From assembly GCA_025055435.1 (NCBI GenBank), contig JANWWN010000030.1:1-38588 (forward strand): a stretch of 38,588 bases of DNA, written 5' to 3'. Positions 18,492 to 29,406 of the stretch are shown piece after piece. The stretch is from Cyclobacteriaceae bacterium (GTDB taxonomy: Bacteria > Bacteroidota > Bacteroidia > Cytophagales > Cyclobacteriaceae). The notes under the pieces were generated by a model. That model did not search any database and had not been told where the DNA came from. It saw only the letters and a list, made by a program, of their open reading frames with translations. Positions within the stretch are counted from its first letter, which is position 1. Every line of letters starts with the position of its first letter. Made by a program: the position numbers and the translations under genes.

Positions 18492-18507
18492 CGTGACTAA
18501 GGTTACG
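18492..18507 (+). promoter_or_regulatory. Crp/Fnr-type operator, site 1 (upstream of tauE)
   Basis: CGTGACTAAGGTTACG is a near-palindrome of the form GTGA-N6-TTAC, one base from GTGA-N6-TCAC. Its centre lies 36.5 bases before the last base of the -7 box at 18529-18536, which puts it at about -41 from the expected transcription start. Three similar sites precede the other units of the sulfur island. Confidence 0.65.
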
Positions 18508-18528
18508 GACATGCCGAGGTGCTATCTT

Positions 18529-18536
18529 TACCTTTG
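18529..18536 (+). promoter_or_regulatory. -7 promoter box of the tauE-like gene
   Basis: TACCTTTG is an exact match to TAnnTTTG. The expected transcription start is near 18540, leaving a leader of about 25 bases before the ATG at 18565. Confidence 0.6.
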
Positions 18537-18564
18537 CCGCACTTTAAGCAAACCCCCGACACAC

Positions 18565-19356
18565 ATGGCTATTTTAGGTTATGCCGCCTCCGTACTCATG
18601 GGTCTTTCACTCGGTTTAATTGGTGGCGGTGGTTCCATTTTAACAGTTCCTATTCTCGTTTATCTGTTTGGAGTTGACCCGGTGTTGGCAACTGCCTACT
18701 CGTTATTTGTCGTTGGCCTAACCAGCCTGGTAGGCTCGTACAGCCACTTCCGCGCAGGTAACGTACAACTTAAAACAGCATTTATCTTTGGCCTTCCTTC
18801 TATTGCTGCAGTTTATGCCGTGCGCAAATTTGCCGTGCCGTATATTCCCGACCCGGCATTCTACATCGGTTCGTTTGCCGTTGCCAAAGGCACCCTGCTC
18901 ATGGTGTTGTTTGCCGTTCTCATGCTCATGGCAAGCATTTCCATGATTCGTCAGGGCCGGCAAAAGGAGTCTGAAAAAAAATCAACAGATAATTATCTGC
19001 TCATCTTTTTGGAAGGCTTGCTGGTGGGCGGCCTCACCGGACTGGTTGGCGCAGGTGGCGGTTTCCTGATCATACCCGCCCTGGTTTTATTGGCGGGCTT
19101 ACCGATGAAGCAGGCCGTAGGCACCTCACTGCTCATCATCGCTCTAAAATCACTTATCGGTTTTACCGGTGACCTGGGTGCCGGCCAGCCCATTGATTAC
19201 GGCTTCATGCTGCTGTTCTCAGCCTTTGCCATTGCAGGCATATTGCTCGGCAGCTATCTTACCAAATTCATCTCCAATGAAAAATTAAAGCCTGCCTTTG
19301 GTTGGTTTGTTTTGGTGATGGGTGTGTACATCATTATTAAAGAAGTGCTATTGTAA
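18565..19356 (+). CDS. TauE/SafE-family anion exporter
   Basis: The 263-residue protein has about eight membrane helices and the twin glycine motifs of the family: LSLGLIGGGGSILTVPILV (residues 12-30) and GLTGLVGAGGGFLIIPALV in the second half. TauE/SafE proteins move sulfite, sulfoacetate or related sulfur anions out of the cell. The ATG at 18565 follows the promoter box; an in-frame GTG at 18493 would lie upstream of the promoter box. Its own operator and promoter make it a single-gene unit at the head of the sulfur island. Export of sulfite formed by the dioxygenase encoded at 27657 is a reasonable inference. Confidence 0.85.
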   Translation: MAILGYAASVLMGLSLGLIGGGGSILTVPILVYLFGVDPVLATAYSLFVVGLTSLVGSYSHFRAGNVQLKTAFIFGLPSIAAVYAVRKFAVPYIPDPAFYIGSFAVAKGTLLMVLFAVLMLMASISMIRQGRQKESEKKSTDNYLLIFLEGLLVGGLTGLVGAGGGFLIIPALVLLAGLPMKQAVGTSLLIIALKSLIGFTGDLGAGQPIDYGFMLLFSAFAIAGILLGSYLTKFISNEKLKPAFGWFVLVMGVYIIIKEVLL

Positions 19357-19400
19357 AATCCGGATATAGATTCGGATAATCATCTTCTTTGATTCAGGCT

Positions 19401-19414
19401 GTGACAAAAGTTAC
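19401..19414 (+). promoter_or_regulatory. Crp/Fnr-type operator, site 2 (upstream of yeeE/tsuA)
   Basis: GTGACAAAAGTTAC has the form GTGA-N6-TTAC. Its centre is 36.5 bases before the end of a -7-like box, CATTTTTG at 19437-19444 (one mismatch to TAnnTTTG), exactly the spacing of site 1. Confidence 0.6.
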
Positions 19415-19436
19415 CGACTGACAAAAATCAGGATTT

Positions 19437-19444
19437 CATTTTTG
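19437..19444 (+). promoter_or_regulatory. -7-like box of the thiosulfate uptake/TsdA operon
   Basis: CATTTTTG differs from TAnnTTTG in the first base only. A degenerate box fits a promoter that needs an activator bound at site 2. The leader would be about 28 bases. Confidence 0.45.
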
Positions 19445-19475
19445 CTGATAATTCATTCATTAAACCCCGATAGTT

Positions 19476-20042
19476 ATGTTAGAAGCAATACGACAACCGT
19501 GGCCCTGGTATGTAGCCGGCGCATTAATCGGATTAACCGTTCCTGCGCTGCTGCTGCTTGGCAACAAACACTTTGGTATATCCTCATCACTCCGGCACAT
19601 CTGTGCAGCCTGTTTTCCCGCAAAAATTCCCTTCTTCCAGTATGATTGGCGAAGGGAGGTCTGGAATTTATTTTTTGTTGGCGGTGTGCTGATAGGCGGT
19701 TTCGTAGCTACACAATTTCTCAGCAACCCCGAGCCGATTCGGGTCGCAGAAAAAACCGTGGAAGAACTTCAGCAACTCAACATTCAAACCGACAGCCAAC
19801 TGATGCCGGCTTCTATTTTCAGCATAGAAAATCTGCTCACGCTGAAGGGCCTGGTATTTTTTGTAATTGGCGGGTTCCTGGTGGGCTTTGGTACACGCTA
19901 TGCCGGCGGCTGCACCTCCGGCCATTCCATCATGGGCCTTTCAACCTTGCAATGGCCCTCTTTGGTGGCCACCTGTTGCTTTATGGCCGGTGGCTTCCTG
20001 ATGGTTCACCTGATCTTCCCCTGGTTAATGCAACTATTTTAA
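19476..20042 (+). CDS. YeeE/YedE-family thiosulfate-type transporter, first half
   Basis: The 188-residue protein has about four to five membrane helices and the family motif [15 protein letters not shown] (C146 in GGCTSGH); another cysteine pair occurs in [11 protein letters not shown] (C43, C46). In TsuA, a thiosulfate importer of this family, conserved membrane cysteines pass thiosulfate along by transient S-S-H hydrogen bonding. Here the usual single protein is split over two genes, and the next gene supplies the other motif. Together they likely bring thiosulfate or another sulfane-sulfur compound through the inner membrane. It is the first gene of a four-gene operon. Confidence 0.87.
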
Positions 20043-20061
20043 CTCCAACAGACCTGAGATT

Positions 20062-20592
20062 ATGGAAACTTTAACTAAAGAAAATATCCATACCATTACC
20101 GCTACTGATGAACAGCCCGTTGTGATTGAGCACCCTCTGGAGTGCGAAGCACCCAACGACCAGATTGCCCGCGAAACCTGGACCAGCAACCTGAAATACG
20201 CTGTAGTTGGTATCCTTTTCGGAATTGTATTCGTGAAAGCCGAAATCATCTCCTGGTACCGTATTCAGGAAATGTTCCGCCTGCACTCATTCCACATGTA
20301 TGGTGTTATCGGAACCGCTGTTATAGTGGGAATGATTTCCGTATGGCTTATTAAAAAATTTAATGTTAAAACCCTGCAGGGCGAAAAGGTTGTGTTTCAT
20401 ACCAAAGAATTTCATTGGGGTAATGTTTTTGGTGCCCTGCTGTTCGGCTTGGGTTGGGCCATTACAGGCGCCTGCCCGGGTCCGTTGTTTGCACAGATTG
20501 GCAGTGGCTTTCTGGTGGTAACCGTTACGCTCATCAGTGCCATAGCCGGCACCTGGGTGTACGGATTCCTGCGGGAAAAGCTCCCGCACTGA
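20062..20592 (+). CDS. YeeE/YedE-family (DUF6691-like) transporter, second half
   Basis: The 176-residue protein has a polar N-terminus of about 40 residues, then four membrane helices. Near the C-terminus is the signature LGWAITGACPGPLFAQIG (C138), the partner motif to GGCTSGH of the preceding gene. The two are separated by only 19 bases and are expected to form one transporter. The N-terminal region holds HPLECEAPND, a cysteine not typical of the family core. The substrate (thiosulfate or sulfide-derived sulfur) is inferred from the family and from the following tsdA-like gene. Confidence 0.85.
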   Translation: METLTKENIHTITATDEQPVVIEHPLECEAPNDQIARETWTSNLKYAVVGILFGIVFVKAEIISWYRIQEMFRLHSFHMYGVIGTAVIVGMISVWLIKKFNVKTLQGEKVVFHTKEFHWGNVFGALLFGLGWAITGACPGPLFAQIGSGFLVVTVTLISAIAGTWVYGFLREKLPH

Positions 20593-20620
20593 TGGATTAT
20601 TTCATCATGCTAAAATCAGT

Positions 20621-21670
20621 ATGGACCGACAATTGAACCATAAACTCTTTATCCGTGCAGTAAATCTGTTCGTGTTGCTGGTTATGCTACTGGTGGGATT
20701 TATTTGCGCCATTATGGGGATTACTGTTTACGGACCTGAAAGAGTTATGGCCCGTTTGTCGGAAAGGCCGGAAACACAAACCCCACCTCAGCCGGTACCG
20801 GATGTATGGGTAGCACCTGACACATCCGCTATACCCAATGACGAAGAAGGTGAACGGATACGCTACGGCAGAAAACTGATTGCAAATACTGCCGAATACC
20901 TGGGACCAGAAGGAAAAGTGATGCCCATCAGCAACGGAATGAATTGCCAGAATTGCCACCTGGAAGCCGGCACCAAACCCTATGGTAACAACTACAGTGC
21001 AGTGGCATCAACGTATCCGAAATTCCGGGCGCGTTCCGGTACGATTGAATCCATCGAAAAAAGGGTAAACGATTGTTTTGAGCGAAGTCTGAATGGTAAG
21101 CCGCTGCCCGATGATTCGCCCGAAATGAAAGCCATCGTGGCTTACATGAAATGGCTCGGAAAAGATGTTCCGAAAGGTGAAACACCCAAAGGTGCGGGCC
21201 TGGTTGAACTTACCTATCTCGATGTGCCTGCCGATCCGGTTAAAGGTAAAATGCTGTACGAGGAAAAATGTATAGTGTGCCACGGAAGGAATGGCGAAGG
21301 AGTAAAACACACCGGCACCACCGGATGGCTATATCCGCCGCTGTGGGGCGAACAAAGTTACAACACCGGTGCAGGGTTATACCGGCTTTCGCGATTTGCG
21401 GGCTATATCAAGGCTAACATGCCGTTAGGAGCAACTTACCTGGAACCCCAGCTTACCGATGAAGAAGCCTGGCATATTGCGGCTTATGTAAATTCCATGC
21501 CACGGCCGGGGAAGGATATTTCAAAAGACTGGCCCGATATAACCCAAAAGCCGGTTGATCATCCCTTCGGCCCGTATGCCGATGGCTTTGATGAGCAACA
21601 ACACAAATACGGCCCTTTTAAACCCATTATCGAGCAACGAAAAAAGTTAAGTGCATTAGTTAAGAAATGA
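20621..21670 (+). CDS. tsdA: Dihaem cytochrome c, thiosulfate dehydrogenase (TsdA-like)
   Basis: TsdA joins two thiosulfates into tetrathionate in the periplasm and passes on two electrons; some members run in reverse. The 349-residue protein has an N-terminal membrane anchor (about residues 11-34) and two haem sites: CQNCH (C109-H113) and CIVCH (C217-H221). The segment RVNDCFERSLNG supplies a cysteine (C152) where TsdA enzymes have the unusual Cys ligand of the active-site haem, and M267 in KANMPLG fits the distal ligand of the second haem. The stop overlaps the next gene (ATGA). The membrane anchor replaces the cleavable signal peptide of better-known TsdA proteins. Confidence 0.85.
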   Translation: MDRQLNHKLFIRAVNLFVLLVMLLVGFICAIMGITVYGPERVMARLSERPETQTPPQPVPDVWVAPDTSAIPNDEEGERIRYGRKLIANTAEYLGPEGKVMPISNGMNCQNCHLEAGTKPYGNNYSAVASTYPKFRARSGTIESIEKRVNDCFERSLNGKPLPDDSPEMKAIVAYMKWLGKDVPKGETPKGAGLVELTYLDVPADPVKGKMLYEEKCIVCHGRNGEGVKHTGTTGWLYPPLWGEQSYNTGAGLYRLSRFAGYIKANMPLGATYLEPQLTDEEAWHIAAYVNSMPRPGKDISKDWPDITQKPVDHPFGPYADGFDEQQHKYGPFKPIIEQRKKLSALVKK

Positions 21671-23094
21671 AGCGGTGGTTAGTGATAATTTTATGGAGCG
21701 CTGCCTTTGCTAAAGCGTGGACTCAGCACCAGGACCCAAGCTGGTCGGTAAGGCGTGCCATCATCAACGAGCAATGCATGCAAAACGACAGCCTGTGCAA
21801 CGTTTTGCATAAGCTGGGTGTGTTCGAAGGCCACTTCCGCACGTTTTTTATGGGCACCTTAAACCATCGCGACTTTCCGGATTACTACGCCCTGGCCATG
21901 GGCGGAGGGCTCGCTTATTTCTCACCGGTTATCAAAAATTTTCAGGTCGGACTTTCAGGCTTTACTATCTACAACCTCTCTTCTTCCGTACTCCATCCCA
22001 ATCCACCTTTTAATAACCGTTATGAGATTCAGCTGTTTGATGTAACCGATCCGGATAATCATGGCGACCTCGATCGCCTGGAAGATTTGTATTTGCGCTA
22101 TTACCTGTCGCAAAAAAATCATTCCCATATACAAATTGGTAAGTTTCACCTGCAAACCCCACTGGTTAATCTTCAGGATGGCCGCATGCGTCCAAATCTG
22201 CAGGAAGGGATTTGGGCAGAGTGGAACAACTGGAAGAAGATAAAATTTAAAGGAGGTTGGATATGGCGCACTTCACCGCGCGGCACGGTACGATGGTACA
22301 CCATCAGCCATTCGCTGGGCGTATATCCGGGCGGCCGGGCTGTAAATGGTTTGCCATCCGATTATGCAGGAAGAACACCTTCTGATGGTATCTTTATCGG
22401 AAGCGTTTCCTATCTCCCTTCTGCAACATTGAATATCGAATGGTGGAATTATTATGTGGACAATCTGTTTAACACCTCATTGTTTAAAACAGAATGGAAA
22501 AGAAAATCGAACAGTAAGGAATGGTTTGCCGGTATTCAATATGTGTACCAACATTCCCTAATGGATTCGTCCCTGCCTGCTGAGCAGCAATACATGCCGG
22601 CTGGCAGTCGGTCGCAGGCCATCAGCACCCGCGTAGGTTTTACCCGCCTTGGCAACAACGAAAAGTGGCACCTCAACTATACACGCATTACCTCACATGG
22701 AAGATTTCTCTTCCCGCGCGAATGGGGTGTTGAGCCGTTCTACACCTTCATGTTCCGCGAGCGCATTGAAGGCGCCGGCAACGTGCACGCAATCATGTTA
22801 CAAAACATTCGACACCTCGATAAGTCGCACCAACTTACATTACATACACAGGCCGGCATTTTTGCCATGCCCCCTGTTGAAAATGCATCACTTAATAAAT
22901 ATAACATGCCCTCCTTCTATCACCTGAATGTGCGCGGAAGATACCGTTTTACCGGATTTCTGCATGGCCTCCACGCCGATATCCTGTATTCCTACAAGGG
23001 CACTTTAGTTAAAAATCTTGAAACAACACCGGCCAACTATCACAATAAAGTGGATAACCACCTGCTGTCGGTTGTGTTGGATTATTATTTCTGA
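21667..23094 (+). CDS. OprD-like outer membrane porin
   Basis: The 475-residue protein has a signal peptide (MKRWLVIILWSAAFAKAWTQ) and then alternating aromatic and polar strands ending in the aromatic C-terminus VVLDYYF, as in outer membrane beta-barrels. The stretch QIGKFHLQTPLVNLQDGRMR resembles the OprD porin family, whose channels admit small anions and amino acids. It overlaps the tsdA stop by four bases (ATGA), so the two are co-translated, and a role as the outer membrane route for thiosulfate or tetrathionate is inferred from that. The family call is moderate. Confidence 0.7.
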   Translation: MKRWLVIILWSAAFAKAWTQHQDPSWSVRRAIINEQCMQNDSLCNVLHKLGVFEGHFRTFFMGTLNHRDFPDYYALAMGGGLAYFSPVIKNFQVGLSGFTIYNLSSSVLHPNPPFNNRYEIQLFDVTDPDNHGDLDRLEDLYLRYYLSQKNHSHIQIGKFHLQTPLVNLQDGRMRPNLQEGIWAEWNNWKKIKFKGGWIWRTSPRGTVRWYTISHSLGVYPGGRAVNGLPSDYAGRTPSDGIFIGSVSYLPSATLNIEWWNYYVDNLFNTSLFKTEWKRKSNSKEWFAGIQYVYQHSLMDSSLPAEQQYMPAGSRSQAISTRVGFTRLGNNEKWHLNYTRITSHGRFLFPREWGVEPFYTFMFRERIEGAGNVHAIMLQNIRHLDKSHQLTLHTQAGIFAMPPVENASLNKYNMPSFYHLNVRGRYRFTGFLHGLHADILYSYKGTLVKNLETTPANYHNKVDNHLLSVVLDYYF

Positions 23095-23104
23095 TAAATA
23101 TATT

Positions 23105-23120
23105 CGTGACGATTGTCACG
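23105..23120 (+). promoter_or_regulatory. Crp/Fnr-type operator, site 3 (upstream of dsrE-like gene)
   Basis: CGTGACGATTGTCACG is a perfect GTGA-N6-TCAC palindrome extended by a C/G pair. Its centre is 36.5 bases before the last base of TAATTTAA (23142-23149), which matches TAnnTT of the -7 element; this is the same spacing as at sites 1 and 2. Confidence 0.7.
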
Positions 23121-23141
23121 ATTGGCTATACAGTTATCACG

Positions 23142-23149
23142 TAATTTAA
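23142..23149 (+). promoter_or_regulatory. Weak -7-like box of the dsrE-rhodanese-soxB operon
   Basis: TAATTTAA agrees with TAnnTTTG at four of the six fixed bases and lies where the operator spacing predicts. The ATG of the dsrE-like gene starts five bases later, so the mRNA would be nearly leaderless. Confidence 0.4.
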
Positions 23150-23153
23150 AAGC

Positions 23154-23564
23154 ATGAAAAAAATTCTTGTTTTTGTGCCGTTTCTCCTCGCAGCCCTTAG
23201 TTCGCTGCAGGCACAGCAGTCTCCCAAAATTATTCTCCACCTCCAATCAGCCGATACACTGGTACATCGATCTCTGGTAAATCAGGTGACTAATCTTAAA
23301 AAGGAATTTCCTAACTCGACTATTGACGTGATTTGCCACGGGCCGGGTATGGAATTTCTGCTCAAAAAGAAATCGGTATATATCGACCGCATCCAGCGTC
23401 AAAATCTGAAAGATGTAACGTTTACCGGGTGTGAGTTCACCATGACTCAGCGTAACATTAAACGCGAAGATCTGGTGCCTTTTGCACGCACGGTTCCCTA
23501 TGCCCTGGCCGACATTATCCGGAAACAACAGGATGGTTGGTTTTATATCAAATTAGGATTCTGA
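23154..23564 (+). CDS. Secreted DsrE-like sulfur carrier protein
   Basis: The 136-residue protein has a signal peptide (MKKILVFVPFLLAALSSLQA, then QQ) and a DsrE/DsrF-like domain: KIILHLQSADTLVHRSLVNQ, then the INDV-like strand TIDVICHGPGMEFLL, and FTGCEFTMTQRNI with the conserved cysteine (C93) that in DsrE-fold proteins carries sulfur as a persulfide. A second cysteine is C61. Cytoplasmic DsrE proteins relay sulfur in sulfur oxidisers; this one is exported to the periplasm, where the next two genes' products also act. It is the first gene of the dsrE-rhodanese-soxB-lysE operon. Confidence 0.8.
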   Translation: MKKILVFVPFLLAALSSLQAQQSPKIILHLQSADTLVHRSLVNQVTNLKKEFPNSTIDVICHGPGMEFLLKKKSVYIDRIQRQNLKDVTFTGCEFTMTQRNIKREDLVPFARTVPYALADIIRKQQDGWFYIKLGF

Positions 23565-23583
23565 AATTATTTACCGCAGTATT

Positions 23584-23967
23584 ATGAAACCTGTACTTTA
23601 TAGCTTCCTTATTCTTTTATTTGCCAGCGGATGCTCCCGTTCACAAAACATTACCACACTGGATGTGGCACAGTTTGAAAAGCAGCTTAAGGAAAAAGCT
23701 GATAAGATTATTCTGGATGTACGAACTCCGGAAGAATATTCTGATGGACATATACCCGGGTCAGTGATGATAGATTATTACAAAAGCGATTTTCGCCAGC
23801 AGATTAACAAGTTGGATAAAACAAAACCCGTGTTTGTTTACTGCGCATCGGGTGTGCGAAGCAGCTCGGCAGCGAAAATACTGGTGCAGTCCGGGTTTAC
23901 CCAGGTATTCAACCTGCAGGGAGGAATAAACGCCTGGTATCGCTCAGGTAAACCCATTGAACGCTGA
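23584..23967 (+). CDS. Rhodanese-domain lipoprotein
   Basis: The 127-residue protein has a lipoprotein signal with lipobox ASGC (C17), then a complete rhodanese domain: KIILDVRTPEEYSDGHIPGS and the active loop VYCASGVRSSSAAK with the persulfide-forming cysteine C87. Rhodaneses move the outer sulfur of thiosulfate or persulfides to an acceptor. Its export places it in the periplasm on a membrane surface, between the secreted DsrE-like protein and SoxB, so sulfur exchange among the three is likely but inferred. Confidence 0.9.
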   Translation: MKPVLYSFLILLFASGCSRSQNITTLDVAQFEKQLKEKADKIILDVRTPEEYSDGHIPGSVMIDYYKSDFRQQINKLDKTKPVFVYCASGVRSSSAAKILVQSGFTQVFNLQGGINAWYRSGKPIER

Positions 23968-23990
23968 AGCAGGAAAAATTTTATTTACCA

Positions 23991-25802
23991 ATGAATCCCG
24001 AACATCACCTGCAATGCTCCTGTACACACTGTAAGCCATCTGTCGTAAAGCAGAAAGAAAAAGAATACCATCTTTCCATTTCCGAGAACAGCCGAAGGGA
24101 ATTTCTGCAAAAAGCCGGCAGGCTCGGATTGGCTTTAGGCGCAGGTGGTGGACTAATCACACCCGTATCTGCCTCAGCCCTGTATTCAGGAGATGCCGAA
24201 GCGCGCAGCCGCGAAATGATAAGTAACAAAGCAGTACAACAAGGTAAGGTTACCCATATTACCCTGTTGCACACAGCCGACATCCATGGGCAACTGCTTA
24301 CCCACGATGAATTTTTTATCGAGAACAATCAGGTGGTGTACAAAAAGCGCGGAGGTTTTGCAGTACTTAAAACCATGATAAAAAAGTTACGTGCAGCAAA
24401 TCCGGCTAACACCATGCTGATTGACGGGGGCGACTGCTTTCAGGGTAGCGGGGTGGCAGCACTCAGCAAAGGAAAGGCAATCGTTCCGCTGATGAATAAT
24501 ATCGGGTACGACCTGATGCTGCCCGGCAACTGGGAAGTGGTGTATGGCAAGGAAATGATGATGAAGGACATGTTTGCCTACAACTGCCCGAAGGTTTGTG
24601 CCAACATGTTTCACCAAACCAACGATGCCTTTAACGGTGATCTGATTTTTCCGCCTTACTATGTAAAACGATTTGGCGATGTGAAAATCGGCTTCATCGG
24701 CTATAACGATCCGCTTACACCCAAACGTCAATCGCCCGCCTACAGCGAAGGTATTTTATTTACCCAGCCTGAAAAAAATGTAGCCAAATACATTCGCCTG
24801 CTGCGCGAATACGAAGGGTGCCATCTGGTCATCCTGCTTACCCACATGGGCCTTGCGCAACAAATCGGTCTGGCTAACAAACCCTTCGTAAAAGGTGCGG
24901 ACTATATCCTCGGTGCCGACACGCATGAGCGCGTTCGCGAGCCGATTGCAGGCGTACATGCAAAAGTAACCGAGCCCGGCGCTTTTGGGTCGTTTATTGC
25001 CAAACTCGATCTGGTCGTGGAGGATGGAGAAGTCAAAGACCACGCGTATGCACTGCTGGATGTGGACCCGGAAAAATATCCGGAAGATGAAGAAATGAAG
25101 GCATTGGTTGAGAAAGCCCGTGTACCATACCGGAAAGAACTCGACCGGGTAATCGGCAAAACCCGGACACCGCTGGTACGCTATTACGTAATTGAAACTC
25201 CGATGGACAATTTGATTACCGATGCCATCATGTGGAAATTTAAGCCTGACATTGCGCTAAGCAACGGCTTCCGGTTCTGCCCGCCACTGGTTCCCGACCC
25301 CAAAACCGGAGTAGCCGAAATCACCATGGACTTCCTGTGGAGCATGTTACCGGTTGACAGCGAAGCCAAACGTGGCGTAGTTACCGGAAAACAGCTGTGG
25401 GACTGGATGGAAAAAGAACTGGAAAACGCTTTTGCCAAAGACCCGGCCAAACGTTTCGGCGGCTGGGTGGTGCGCTTTAAAGGAATGGAAGTAAACTTCA
25501 CCATTGGCAACGAAGCGGGCAAGCGGGTCAATTACATCAAAGTGAACGGCAAACCGCTTGAACTGGAACGAAAATACACCTTTGTAGCCTGCGAGCGCGA
25601 AGGCGACCCCGATACCACCATTTGCCGGATTGATGACGTTGCACAACCCGAACGACTGGGCATAACCATGCACAGCATCATGGAAGAATACCTCGCGAAG
25701 CATTCACCTGTAGCTCCGCGACTTGAGGGCCGCGCAACAGCTACCGATGCTCCCCACACCCTGCTTACGCAACTGATGGGTTATGGGTATGAATTCAGAT
25801 AA
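23991..25802 (+). CDS. soxB: SoxB-like thiosulfohydrolase, Tat-exported
   Basis: The 603-residue protein is a calcineurin-fold metallohydrolase with a C-terminal 5'-nucleotidase domain. A Tat signal (SRREFLQKAG, residues 34-43) follows an unusual N-terminal CSCTHC (C9, C11, C14). Metal motifs are LLHTADIHGQL (D97, H99), GGDCFQGSG (D148) and LLTHMG. Nucleotidases have GNHEFD here; this protein has GNWEVVYG (N180, W181, E182), like the GHWEFTYG of SoxB. SoxB releases sulfate from thiosulfate bound as S-sulfocysteine on SoxY. No soxYZ, soxAX or soxCD gene is in the window, so its carrier is unknown. It could alternatively be a divergent periplasmic nucleotidase. Confidence 0.78.
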   Translation: MNPEHHLQCSCTHCKPSVVKQKEKEYHLSISENSRREFLQKAGRLGLALGAGGGLITPVSASALYSGDAEARSREMISNKAVQQGKVTHITLLHTADIHGQLLTHDEFFIENNQVVYKKRGGFAVLKTMIKKLRAANPANTMLIDGGDCFQGSGVAALSKGKAIVPLMNNIGYDLMLPGNWEVVYGKEMMMKDMFAYNCPKVCANMFHQTNDAFNGDLIFPPYYVKRFGDVKIGFIGYNDPLTPKRQSPAYSEGILFTQPEKNVAKYIRLLREYEGCHLVILLTHMGLAQQIGLANKPFVKGADYILGADTHERVREPIAGVHAKVTEPGAFGSFIAKLDLVVEDGEVKDHAYALLDVDPEKYPEDEEMKALVEKARVPYRKELDRVIGKTRTPLVRYYVIETPMDNLITDAIMWKFKPDIALSNGFRFCPPLVPDPKTGVAEITMDFLWSMLPVDSEAKRGVVTGKQLWDWMEKELENAFAKDPAKRFGGWVVRFKGMEVNFTIGNEAGKRVNYIKVNGKPLELERKYTFVACEREGDPDTTICRIDDVAQPERLGITMHSIMEEYLAKHSPVAPRLEGRATATDAPHTLLTQLMGYGYEFR

Positions 25803-25814
25803 CACCTCATTTTT

Positions 25815-26429
25815 ATGCTTGTGCAGGTATTTGTTGTGGGTGCAGTAATGAGCTTTGTGGGCTCCATTCCGCCCGGCACGCTTAACGTGCTGGTTCTGCA
25901 GATGGGGCTGCAAAAAAAATTCAAACAAGCCATGCGTTTTGCACTTGCCGTTGCCCTGGTGGAGTACCCTTATGCATGGATTGCGGTTGAGTTTGAACAC
26001 TGGATCATGTCCTCACCGCAGCTGACCAAAAATTTTCAGCTCGTGGGCGCAGTTGTCATGACCTCCCTCGGAATATTTAATATCCGTACTACACGAAGAC
26101 CTACGAACTTTTCGGTAAAATTTCAGGAAAGCGGTTTTGTTAAAGGATTGATTTTAAGTTTACTCAATCCGCAGGCTATACCTTTCTGGATTGCCGTTAC
26201 CGCCTATTTAAAAATGCAGGGATGGATTGAACTGAACTCGACATGGCAAATACATAGTTACGTACTCGGAACATCGGTAGGAACCATGGTATTGCTAACG
26301 CTGTTAGCTACGATGGCCAACCGCATGTCGGATTTGATGAATAAAAACCGGTTGTATCAGTTCCTGCCCGGACTGGTATTGCTGGTGCTGGGGATCGTTG
26401 GGTTTGTTAGGTATTTTGTTCACATCTGA
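25815..26429 (+). CDS. LysE-family transporter
   Basis: The 204-residue protein has about six membrane helices. The first one with the loop GSIPPGTLNVLVLQMGL (residues 16-32) is the LysE/RhtB signature (PGP-type turn). The middle shows KGLILSLLNPQAIPFWIAV, also typical of the family. LysE proteins export amino acids or other small compounds. It starts 12 bases after soxB stops and is probably the last gene of that operon. Export of a sulfur-containing compound is possible by position only. Confidence 0.75.
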   Translation: MLVQVFVVGAVMSFVGSIPPGTLNVLVLQMGLQKKFKQAMRFALAVALVEYPYAWIAVEFEHWIMSSPQLTKNFQLVGAVVMTSLGIFNIRTTRRPTNFSVKFQESGFVKGLILSLLNPQAIPFWIAVTAYLKMQGWIELNSTWQIHSYVLGTSVGTMVLLTLLATMANRMSDLMNKNRLYQFLPGLVLLVLGIVGFVRYFVHI

Positions 26430-26584
26430 ATGTGAGGAACTATGCTGGCCATTGGTATTAAACATCAAAGGAAGCTTAGATAATATTAGTAAATCTTTCT
26501 TCTTGACCAATTGTTAAAAATTAAGAACGACTTCAGCATAAATGCAGATTCAGAAAAGTAAGTTTTAAATAAATCCAATAAAAC

Positions 26585-27001
26585 ATGATTCGCAAAGGCA
26601 CACGCATATACAGCATTTTGCATAAAAAATGTCCGCGCTGCCAGGAAGGGAACCTCTTCATTTCGGGAGCTTACACCAAAAAATTCATGGAGATGCCTTC
26701 AAAATGCCCGGTATGCCAGCTGAACTACGAACCCGAGCCCGCATTTTACACCGGGGCCATGTACGTCAGCTATGCCCTCCAGGTAGCCCTCTTCACCACC
26801 ATCTATGTTGCACTGCGAGTATTGTTCAATCCGGCAATGGAAGTTTATTTCATTGCTATGATCGGTATTCCGGTAGTGCTGGCACCCGTAACACTCCGGC
26901 TTTCAAGGGCCATCTACATCAATTTCTTCTTCAGCTATGATCCGGAATGGATAAAAACAACTGCAAATCATGACGGAACCGTCGCTGCGCAGAAAAATTG
27001 A
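26585..27001 (+). CDS. DUF983 family membrane protein
   Basis: The 138-residue protein begins with a zinc-ribbon-like pair of knuckles, CPRCQEGNLF and CPVCQLNYE (residues about 16-45), followed by two membrane helices (about 55-75 and 85-105). This is the DUF983 architecture, common in Bacteroidota and alphaproteobacteria, without an established role. The 155 bases upstream are AT-rich and show no clear box or operator. The next gene overlaps its end by 32 bases. Confidence 0.85.
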   Translation: MIRKGTRIYSILHKKCPRCQEGNLFISGAYTKKFMEMPSKCPVCQLNYEPEPAFYTGAMYVSYALQVALFTTIYVALRVLFNPAMEVYFIAMIGIPVVLAPVTLRLSRAIYINFFFSYDPEWIKTTANHDGTVAAQKN

Positions 27002-27533
27002 ACTCCGGCTGGAAGAAAAACAAAAAACCAGTCGGGCCCGTAGGCAAGTTGCCTGGTTGTTGATTGCCGTACATATCATCACTATGTTCGGCTTCTACCG
27101 CCTCGGTCAACCGTATGTTTCGGGAATAACTCATCTGTTAAGTGGATACCCTGTTGCTTCAGCATTTACAGCGTGGTTGCTCTCTGCTATTATTCTATAC
27201 AAACAGGTAAAAGCCGATGAAACCGAATTATCTGTAAATATTGCGTGGCTCGCTGCAGCGCTTTCCGGTCTTTCCATAATTCTCCTAACAGCCGATACCT
27301 ATCATGCCCGTCAGCACCTGCCCGAACCGGCATCCTTCCGCCCCGGCCTCGCTCTTGCTCCGCAACTCTTTCTTCTCTTAACTACAGTTGGCGTTTCATT
27401 TTATTTTTTTGTAATACAGCGTCAAATCCGAAATTTTCTTATCCACTCACGCAACCTGCTTCCGGTACAATTTGCATTGGCTTTTGTGGCCTATCTGGTA
27501 CTTGTATGGCTCATGATGATGTTGGTGAGATAA
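26970..27533 (+). CDS. Hypothetical four-helix membrane protein
   Basis: I do not recognise this 187-residue protein. It has a basic N-terminus (MTEPSLRRKIELRLEEKQKT) and four predicted membrane helices, near residues 27-45, 63-80, 91-108 and 162-185, plus one around 128-148. Two histidines and aromatic residues lie near helix ends (AVHIITMFGFYRLG), but no haem or metal motif is complete. The start overlaps the DUF983 gene by 32 bases, so co-translation is likely. It stands between the soxB and dioxygenase units and has no operator of its own. Confidence 0.6.
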   Translation: MTEPSLRRKIELRLEEKQKTSRARRQVAWLLIAVHIITMFGFYRLGQPYVSGITHLLSGYPVASAFTAWLLSAIILYKQVKADETELSVNIAWLAAALSGLSIILLTADTYHARQHLPEPASFRPGLALAPQLFLLLTTVGVSFYFFVIQRQIRNFLIHSRNLLPVQFALAFVAYLVLVWLMMMLVR

Positions 27534-27567
27534 TTTTTCCGCACAGTTAAACCATTTTCTCAATATT

Positions 27568-27581
27568 GTGACGCGTGTCAC
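27568..27581 (+). promoter_or_regulatory. Crp/Fnr-type operator, site 4 (upstream of persulfide dioxygenase)
   Basis: GTGACGCGTGTCAC is a perfect GTGA-N6-TCAC palindrome. Its centre is 37.5 bases before the end of GACCTTTG (27605-27612), a -7-like box with one mismatch; the spacing is one base longer than at the other three sites. Confidence 0.7.
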
Positions 27582-27604
27582 TGACGCATATCTGTGCTTT
27601 TTCT

Positions 27605-27612
27605 GACCTTTG
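27605..27612 (+). promoter_or_regulatory. -7-like box of the dioxygenase operon
   Basis: GACCTTTG matches TAnnTTTG except for the first base. The leader to the ATG at 27657 would be about 41 bases. Confidence 0.45.
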
Positions 27613-27656: not shown

Positions 27657-29057
27657 ATGTACTTCCAGCACGTGTACGACAAAACCCTGGCCCAGGCCAG
27701 CTACTTCATCGGATGCCAGGCTACGGGCGAAGCCATTGTAATTGACCCCAAGCGCGATGTGGATACCTACCTTGAAATTGCGCAACAAAACAAAATGCGC
27801 ATTACCCACATTGCCGAAACCCACATTCATGCCGACTTTCTGACCGGTTCGCGCGAGCTGGCCGCCTTAACTGGTGCACAGTTGTATTTATCGGATGAGG
27901 GCGGACCCGATTGGCAATATGAATTTCCGCATATCGGATTGAAAGAAGGTTCGACCTTCATGGTGGGTAACCTGAAATTTGAGGTGATGCACACACCCGG
28001 CCACACGCCCGAAAGCATCAGCTTCCTGCTTACCGATACACCGGCCAGCGATAAACCTGTGATGATTTTTACCGGTGACTTTGTATTTGTAGGCGACATC
28101 GGCCGCCCTGACCTGCTGGAAGAAGCAGCCGGTTTTGTAGGAACGAAAGAAGCCGGTGCGCGTCAGATGTACCAGTCGCTGAAGAAATTTTATGCCCTGC
28201 CCGATTATGTGCAGGTATGGCCCGGACACGGTGCCGGCTCGGCTTGCGGTAAAGCACTGGGTGCGGTGCCCAGCTCAACCGTGGGTTATGAAAAAATATC
28301 TAACTGGGCCTTCCGCTATAAGGACGAAGAAAGCTTTGTGAAGTTTCTGCTCGAAGATCAGCCCGAGCCTCCGCGCTACTTCGCCATGATGAAAAAACTG
28401 AACAAAGTAAATCGCCCCCTGCTTACCGAAGTACCTAAACTAAAGAAACTGTCGGCTCAGGAATTTAAAGCGGCATTAGAAAAAGGAATAAAAGTAGTAG
28501 ATACCCGTACCAAGCAGGAATTTGCCGAAGGCTTCATTCCGGGAACCCTCAACATCCAAAACAACAATTCCTTCAACACCTGGATGGGTTGGTTTATGAA
28601 TTATGACGAGCCCTTCGTGCTCATTGCACCTGAAAGCAAACACGATGACCTGGTGCGTAAGCTGATGCGCATTGGCCTGGATAACATTTACGGCTACGTG
28701 CCTGATGTTACGGTTTGGACTGAACTCGGAAATAAATTGGAAAAAGTGCAGACCATTTCGGCCGAAGAACTGAAGAAAATTCTTCAAACCAACCATACCC
28801 AGATTGTGGACCTCCGCGGTGCAGCCGAATACAAATCAGGACACATTAAAGGTGCTGACCATGTATTTGTCGGTACACTGGAGAAAAACCTCAGCAAGGT
28901 TAAAAAAGATGAACCGGTGGTCATCCACTGCCAGGCAGGCGACCGTGCATCGATTGGCTACTCTATTCTGGCCAAACATGGTTACCGGAACGTGAAGAAT
29001 TACATGGGCGGAATAAGCGAGTGGATAAGCCTGGGTAACGAAGTAGTACGAAACTGA
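27657..29057 (+). CDS. Persulfide dioxygenase-rhodanese fusion (CstB-like)
   Basis: From the ATG at 27657 the 466-residue protein has three domains. The first (1-235) is an ETHE1-type metallo-beta-lactamase fold with iron ligands expected at H56 (ETHIHAD), H116 (TPGHTPE) and D141 (FTGDFVF); such enzymes oxidise glutathione or protein persulfide to sulfite. The second (about 260-355) is a rhodanese fold whose active loop (VLIAPESKHDD) lacks cysteine. The third (about 365-466) is an active rhodanese with HCQAGDRAS. The order dioxygenase, inactive rhodanese, active rhodanese is that of CstB of Staphylococcus aureus, which turns persulfide into thiosulfate. An in-frame start 63 bases upstream lies within the leader and is less likely. 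Confidence 0.88.
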   Translation: MYFQHVYDKTLAQASYFIGCQATGEAIVIDPKRDVDTYLEIAQQNKMRITHIAETHIHADFLTGSRELAALTGAQLYLSDEGGPDWQYEFPHIGLKEGSTFMVGNLKFEVMHTPGHTPESISFLLTDTPASDKPVMIFTGDFVFVGDIGRPDLLEEAAGFVGTKEAGARQMYQSLKKFYALPDYVQVWPGHGAGSACGKALGAVPSSTVGYEKISNWAFRYKDEESFVKFLLEDQPEPPRYFAMMKKLNKVNRPLLTEVPKLKKLSAQEFKAALEKGIKVVDTRTKQEFAEGFIPGTLNIQNNNSFNTWMGWFMNYDEPFVLIAPESKHDDLVRKLMRIGLDNIYGYVPDVTVWTELGNKLEKVQTISAEELKKILQTNHTQIVDLRGAAEYKSGHIKGADHVFVGTLEKNLSKVKKDEPVVIHCQAGDRASIGYSILAKHGYRNVKNYMGGISEWISLGNEVVRN

Positions 29058-29079: not shown

Positions 29080-29406
29080 ATGTTTGGATTATTTTCCGTT
29101 GGCTCGAAATTATACGAGAACCTGAGCGGACCGGAGTTCAAAGAAAAATACCTGGCCAGTAACAATGCCGTGCTGGTAGATGTACGTACGCCCGGCGAGT
29201 ACCGCGCAGGCACCATTAAGGGTGCTAAAAACATAGACTTCATGTCACCAACCTTTAAACAGGAGTTCTTGAAACTGCCAAAGGATAAGGAATATTTCCT
29301 GTTTTGCCGAAGCGGTAACCGAAGCGGCCATGCCTGTGCCATGCTGGCCAAAGAAGGCTATAAAGTTTATAACCTCGATGGCGGCATTGGCGACTGGCCC
29401 GAATAA
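29080..29406 (+). CDS. Single-domain cytoplasmic rhodanese
   Basis: The 108-residue protein is one rhodanese domain without signal peptide: VLVDVRTPGEYRAGTIKGA, then the active loop FCRSGNRSG with cysteine C76. It starts 22 bases after the dioxygenase gene and shares its operator. It probably supplies or accepts persulfide sulfur for the dioxygenase in the cytoplasm. Confidence 0.9.
   Translation: MFGLFSVGSKLYENLSGPEFKEKYLASNNAVLVDVRTPGEYRAGTIKGAKNIDFMSPTFKQEFLKLPKDKEYFLFCRSGNRSGHACAMLAKEGYKVYNLDGGIGDWPE

Follow-up and report, generated by a model that had tools for sequence, protein, structure and literature searches.

Crp/Fnr-type operators of a putative sulfur regulon in a Cyclobacteriaceae bacterium and their probable regulator

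The 38,588-nt stretch analysed here, referred to as the window, is contig JANWWN010000030.1 (positions 1 to 38,588) of assembly GCA_025055435.1 from a Cyclobacteriaceae bacterium. It carries an island of sulfur genes with transcription units beginning at tauE, yeeE, a dsrE-like gene and pdo (Table 1); the SoxB-like protein encoded in the third unit scores under the NCBIfam SoxB cut-off (278 vs 550 bits). The original prediction, made from the sequence of the window, was that four Crp/Fnr-type palindromes of the form GTGA-N6-T(C/T)AC precede these units at the distance from a -7-like box at which class II activators bind, and that they define a sulfur regulon with a regulator encoded elsewhere. 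The palindromes lie where it placed them, and the four GTGAC-N4-GTYAC places in the window all precede transcription units of the island. The distances from palindrome centre to the last base of the -7-like box were reproduced as 36.5, 36.5, 36.5 and 37.5, and a perfect TAnnTTTG is found only in the first box, those at sites 2 to 4 being imperfect as had been claimed.

Table 1. Operators, promoter boxes and sulfur-island genes of the window, and the candidate regulator encoded elsewhere in the genome
Feature	Coordinates	Strand	Sequence or basis
Operator 1, before tauE	18493..18506	+	GTGACTAAGGTTAC; exact motif
-7 box of tauE	18529..18536	+	TACCTTTG; end at +36.5 from operator 1 centre; spacing as in relatives
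Operator 2, before yeeE unit	19401..19414	+	GTGACAAAAGTTAC; motif match
-7 box after operator 2	19437..19444	+	CATTTTTG; end at +36.5
Operator 3, before dsrE unit	23106..23119	+	GTGACGATTGTCAC; motif match
-7-like box after operator 3	23142..23149	+	TAATTTAA; end at +36.5; imperfect
Operator 4, before pdo	27568..27581	+	GTGACGCGTGTCAC; motif match; related pdo sites in relatives
-7 box after operator 4	27605..27612	+	GACCTTTG; end at +37.5
tauE, TauE/SafE sulfite exporter family	18565..19356	+	Pfam PF01925, 5e-44
yeeE-like sulfur transporter half	19476..20042	+	PF04143
yedE/DUF6691-like sulfur transporter half	20062..20592	+	PF04143, PF20398
SoxA/TsdA-type cytochrome c	20621..21670	+	PF21342, PF00034
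OprD-like porin	21667..23094	+	PF03573, 3.5e-06
dsrE-like gene	23154..23564	+	PF02635, 1.6e-05
Rhodanese after dsrE-like gene	23584..23967	+	PF00581
SoxB-like 5'-nucleotidase family protein	23991..25802	+	NCBIfam SoxB, 1e-82
LysE-type translocator	25815..26429	+	PF01810
pdo, persulfide-dioxygenase-like metallo-beta-lactamase (MBL)/rhodanese protein	27657..29057	+	PF00753, PF00581
Rhodanese 3' of pdo	29080..29406	+	PF00581
P0001, Crp/Fnr protein	G000:C16:34812-35429		cyclic nucleotide (cNMP)-binding domain and Crp-type helix-turn-helix (HTH)

Operators and promoter geometry across relatives

Comparison of 20 stretches from 17 relatives, in which sites were counted in strict or looser form, supports the claim that the palindromes are Crp/Fnr-type operators of a sulfur regulon. 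A site precedes tauE in 10 of the 11 island loci that hold this gene, yeeE in 5/11 and dsrE in 4/9, and several loci have related sites before pdo. In other members of the genus a site lies before a thioredoxin gene that is itself followed by pdo, and sites also recur before sqr.

The placement of the operators was assessed in 58 distinct regions in which the motif is followed, at a distance of 15-230 bp, by a homolog of sqr, crp or a gene of the window; one region preceding a crp gene was then dropped. TTTG ends at +36.5 from the operator centre in 41 of the 57 remaining promoters and at +37.5 in a further 10, counts that do not represent 57 independent events because the sequences are related; in 2000 shuffles of this set no single offset was reached more than four times. 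No -33 element is conserved in this set, and that position is occupied by the proximal half-site together with a GA at +8.5/+9.5. In class II Crp promoters the site is centred near -41, and the 51 promoters at +36.5/+37.5, taken with the missing -33 element, have the features expected of class II Crp/Fnr-dependent promoters. The class II position proposed for the window sites is thus borne out by a spacing shared across relatives. A second set of 203 loci (1.71 Mb), fetched without use of the motif and in many cases from around sulfur genes or crp, gave a similar picture. The Bacteroidota -7 core A..TTTG stands at +36.5/+37.5 in 88 of 289 distinct motif instances and at any other offset in two at most. 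The composite of operator and correctly spaced A..TTTG occurs 87 times in these loci; of the permuted half-sites used for comparison (119), one, RTGAY, overlaps the real motif and gave 51, and the other 118 gave at most 5 (mean 0.20). Operator, geometry and predicted regulon are therefore well supported by comparison, and the promoter geometry suggests that the bound regulator would activate transcription.

Over all fetched loci, some of which were fetched by the motif, 94 distinct composite promoters were collected. The genes that follow them were read by eye from translated starts, with family searches for a minority only, and resemble those for TauE, persulfide dioxygenase, YeeE, rhodanese, thioredoxin, SoxB-like proteins, cytochrome c, DsrE, and SulP-, TolC- and DUF2892-like proteins. 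By the same reading, genes for TolC-type outer membrane protein-like products follow composites at L027 472, L055 11742, L059 16061 and L240 5157, and genes for SulP transporter- and DUF2892/YgaP-like small membrane proteins at L218 9376, L219 3493, L224 9204, at 1501 in L086, L091 and L092, and at L205 11310. The tauE gene of G102 is preceded by two identical 14-base operators 96 bp apart (L230 3928 and 4024), each with its own -7 core.

Sites elsewhere in the genome

The pattern GTGA-N6-TYAC gives eight matches in the window, corresponding to six distinct places (two being counted on both strands), whereas 100 dinucleotide shuffles of the window gave a mean of 1.84 and a largest value of 7; the two places that are not operators, 14322 and 28059, are both intragenic. 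In the genome as a whole (2.79 Mb searched, 97% complete, 100 contigs), GTGAC-N4-GTYAC occurs at nine distinct places, four of which are the window operators. The broader GTGAYN4RTYAC occurs at 24. When the 20 that are not window operators were read both ways, TTTG stood at +36.5 or +37.5 in a single case, the thioredoxin site described below. Three other places were set aside: a strict motif inside a cytochrome gene (G000:C21:15806, L003), where it is produced by the codons for a CxxCH haem-binding motif; C2:50131, which is coding; and an intergenic place on C68 before an M20 peptidase gene, which has no TTTG at the spacing.

The predicted regulon reaches beyond the window to sqr and thioredoxin genes elsewhere in the genome. 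On contig C50, a site is centred 61 bp before the ATG of a flavoprotein gene (sqr) whose product matches PDB sulfide-quinone reductases (SQR) over its C-terminal 341 residues (8.9e-59); none of the SQR models was matched above its cut-off. Orthologs in G003 and G014 retain the site, and the 46-47% relatives in G002, G008 and G011 have a looser form of it. The gene itself (G000:C50, L008 1569-2960) contains a run of N between copies of a repeat of ~25 residues and is intact in the orthologs, so that the run and the repeat look like a scaffolding artefact. On contig C4, the site facing the thioredoxin gene (G000:C4:38818, L002) carries a TTTG whose end is at +36.5, 55 bp upstream of the ATG, although the core is missing its A. 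The thioredoxin protein scores above its NCBIfam cut-off. This operator sits between the thioredoxin gene and a divergent gene matching the HigB-like toxin family PF05015.

The candidate regulator and its homologs

That the regulator is encoded outside the window appears correct, since contig C16 encodes a likely one, P0001. A search of the genome for Crp-type HTH proteins yielded two, P0001 and P0002; one further cNMP-binding match, a 1058-residue frame, has no HTH match. P0001 combines the cNMP-binding domain and Crp-type HTH that mark the Crp/Fnr superfamily (PF00027, 49.4 bits; PF13545, 34.5; PF00325, 24.4; all above cut-off). A structure model, made not of P0001 but of its 78% ortholog L050 (pLDDT 86.5, pTM 0.61), gave Thermus thermophilus CRP 4ev0 as its top Foldseek match (TM 0.80). 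The recognition helix of P0001, SREVISR, is CRP-like, with an R-E-x3-R pattern. P0002 (G000:C12, L010 1471-2538) combines a response-regulator receiver and a Crp-type regulator in one protein, with helix ASESVIR, and its neighbours look, by eye, like cbb3-oxidase assembly genes.

At E<=1e-20, 113 of the 147 relatives have homologs of P0001, paralogs included. Twenty ortholog loci were named, of which L069 (22% identity) was dropped. The original prediction had proposed looking for Crp/Fnr genes near sulfur genes in relatives, and in 15 of the 19 remaining loci the ortholog is accompanied by homologs of tauE, pdo, rhodanese or yeeE. The strict motif is present in 10 of the 19, and in eight loci its start is no more than 70 bp from the 3' end of crp. 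When intergenic inverted repeats in the named loci were ranked over all 5-mers and spacings of 0-12, GTGAC-N4-GTCAC came top with 12 sites in eight loci, the next, an A/T run, having seven, and ortholog L032 (G102) has a composite site before its own gene. The evidence that P0001 is the activator of the sulfur regulon is strong but indirect.

The association extends to another phylum. From 39 plasmid records with a P0001 homolog, 20 regions were read. Of the 15 proteobacterial ones, 11 have yeeE/DUF6691 and/or MBL genes downstream of the crp homolog, three have DUF2892 only and one has nothing related. A GTRAY-RTYAC palindrome starts 68-100 bp before the first operon gene in 13 of the 15 (L260-L264, L267, L268, L270-L274 and L276), always with a spacer of 3, spacers of 2-5 having been allowed and the DUF2892 gene taken as first in two Azospirillum records. 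Two Bacteroidota records scanned likewise, L257 and L259, have a spacer of 4; a third, from Persicobacter (L258), lacks both the motif and an operon of this kind, and neither of two Bacillota plasmid records has a yeeE/MBL-type operon.

CRP binds cAMP via Glu72 and Arg82. At these positions P0001 has alanine and glutamate, and among 68 distinct homologs residue 75 is never Glu and residue 85 is Arg in two; with its cAMP-binding residues replaced, P0001 was rejected as a cAMP-responsive CRP. It resembles Escherichia coli CRP in its R-E-x3-R helix, the GTGA-N6-TCAC half-sites and the centre near -41, and differs from it in the lost Glu72/Arg82 pair, the Bacteroidota-type -7 box and the sulfur-gene targets. 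FNR regulators, with which P0001 shares the Crp/Fnr fold, bind a 4Fe-4S cluster through four cysteines. P0001 has only two, Cys74 and Cys80 (C-X5-C at the effector pocket), so that it lacks an FNR-like set of cluster ligands and was rejected as an FNR as well. Cys74 is conserved in 66 and Cys80 in 55 of the 68 homologs; in the L050 model, the former stands just before helix 75-82 and the latter inside it. L265 and L275, which have neither cysteine, are adjoined by no such operon. Sulfane sulfur may be sensed directly through these cysteines, Cys74 being the residue predicted to be essential.

It is quite possible, and is suggested here tentatively, that P0001 represents an apparently undescribed Crp/Fnr subfamily of Bacteroidota and Pseudomonadota, in which C-X5-C in the former cAMP pocket would make a direct sulfane-sulfur-sensing activator of sulfide/persulfide detoxification, reading one GTGAC half-site across a spacer of 4 bp in Bacteroidota and 3 bp in Proteobacteria. 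Such a change of spacer between phyla would amount to a natural experiment on DNA reading by Crp dimers.

The genus members G004, G015 and G016 (L202-L204) lack the two-cysteine Crp and carry a 32-34% relative that has SCIMSFLG at the place of the two cysteines, with no sulfur genes within 6 kb; a SCIMSFLG-type Crp lies beside sulfur genes in L217 and L220.

A model of the regulon and its alternatives

The four palindromes very probably serve as class II operators in a small regulon responding to sulfur, with P0001 as the probable activator and sulfane sulfur as the likeliest signal. In the proposed mechanism, a P0001 dimer would bind directly to GTGAC-N4-GTYAC centred near -41.5, which would stand in for a -33 element, and draw RNA polymerase to the TAnnTTTG-type -7 box. 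The genes turned on in this way would be tauE, the yeeE/yedE-cytochrome c-porin unit, the dsrE-rhodanese-soxB-like unit and pdo-rhodanese, as well as sqr and the thioredoxin gene elsewhere in the genome. The likeliest trigger would be persulfide or polysulfide modifying Cys74 (and Cys80 where present), at the place where CRP holds cAMP. With the operator rule, GTGAC-N4-GTYAC followed by A..TTTG at +36.5/+37.5, the regulon can be predicted in genomes of uncultured organisms, and the rule leads to a single candidate regulator; if the cysteines do sense persulfide, the Crp fold would be added to the sulfane-sulfur sensors.

Several observations weigh against this interpretation. Six of the 57 promoters lack the spacing, namely four of dsrE including that of the window, one of pdo and that of the genome's own sqr, where the box reads TTCA instead of TTTG. 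The dsrE site (23106) is the weakest of the four: its box has no TTTG, and with the start expected at ~23154, at the annotated ATG itself, the transcript would be leaderless or the protein would begin further in. P0001 itself is distant from sulfur genes, as is its ortholog L050, and sulfur homologs are absent from 4 of the 19 named loci. G004, G015, G016 and, by identity, G007 have only the 32-34% Crp relative; in these four genomes the yeeE and dsrE sites are missing and the tauE site is kept in three. Where a Crp homolog is present, 16 of 33 genomes have composites in pdo/yeeE loci, against none of five where it is absent, a weak contrast. A strict two-cysteine sensor is weakened by the Cys74-only homologs L217 and L220, which adjoin sulfur genes, so that having both cysteines is not always necessary; Persicobacter (L258, where the motif too is absent) and Pusillibacter (L266) have two-cysteine homologs with no sulfur genes beside them. 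Nor is the motif clearly in excess genome-wide. In the same genome GTGAC-N4-GTYAC is barely in excess (12 strand-matches against 10 for the reversed pattern) and the strict palindrome occurs three times, as does its reversed control; across 147 genomes the strict palindrome is often rarer than the control (G001, 3 vs 9; G035, 6 vs 16) and sometimes commoner (G105, 7 vs 2).

Such frequencies are what four chance matches to a short degenerate pattern would lead one to expect, and a motif equally common elsewhere had been named in the original prediction as grounds for rejecting it. By abundance alone the excess is indeed slight, so that the signal is carried by position. Once position is considered the motif is not equally common elsewhere, the thioredoxin site being the only one of the 20 other places to have TTTG at the spacing. 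Position, conservation and fixed spacing, the last above all when compared across relatives, leave chance extremely improbable. The palindromes could also be operators of a repressor from another family, with a spacing set by repression at the core promoter; repression is how known sulfane-sulfur regulators such as BigR act (PMC7315123). A site centre 36.5 bp upstream of the last base of the -7 box and the lack of a conserved -33 element fit an activator, however, and the half-site and spacing suit a Crp-type protein whose gene is the common neighbour (the genome was not searched for other regulator families), so that a repressor of this kind is very improbable. Among Crp-family proteins of the genome, P0002 might read the sites, in which case the sulfur genes would answer a two-component or oxygen signal. 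This is highly unlikely, as the R-E-x3-R pattern seen in P0001 is missing from its helix, ASESVIR, and the neighbourhoods combining motif and sulfur genes came from queries with P0001 homologs, P0002 not having been queried. A rather unlikely but weightier alternative is that P0001 binds the sites in response to another signal (redox state, oxygen, or the binding of a nucleotide or, with no thiol chemistry involved, of a sulfur metabolite), with a structural role for the cysteines. Crp-family members sense many ligands, and Cys80 is absent from 13 of the 68 homologs; on the other side, the target genes have mostly sulfide, persulfide or thiosulfate functions, and both homologs without Cys74 are those without an adjoining operon.

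BigR/SqrR (ArsR family), CstR (CsoR family) and FisR (a sigma54 activator) control pdo, yeeE/yedE, tauE and sqr-type genes. The P0001 system shares these targets, but the known regulators belong to other protein families, BigR being a repressor and FisR working with sigma54; the Pfam matches of P0001 are to Crp/Fnr models only and do not place it with BigR/SqrR, CstR or FisR (families for which the genome was not searched). BigR and FisR are reported to control such genes in Acinetobacter baumannii (PMC7315123), and control by FisR is reported also in PMC9774590. A search of the open-access literature, including PMC7315123, PMC9723704, PMC8014003 and PMC9774590 and with subscription papers and preprints outside the scope, turned up no account of these sulfur operons being regulated by a Crp/Fnr protein. 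Nor did it yield a description of the regulation of sulfide/persulfide oxidation in Bacteroidota; such negatives do not prove the system unpublished. The A. baumannii protein A1S_1182, like P0001 a member of the Crp family, is persulfidated in sulfide-treated cells; it is, however, 50% identical to E. coli Crp and close to Vfr, and is not known to control sulfur genes (PMC7315123). The best PDB sequence match to P0001 (1.3e-29) is 3DV8, a Crp/Fnr protein of Eubacterium rectale, which belongs to another phylum and has cysteines at both P0001 positions.

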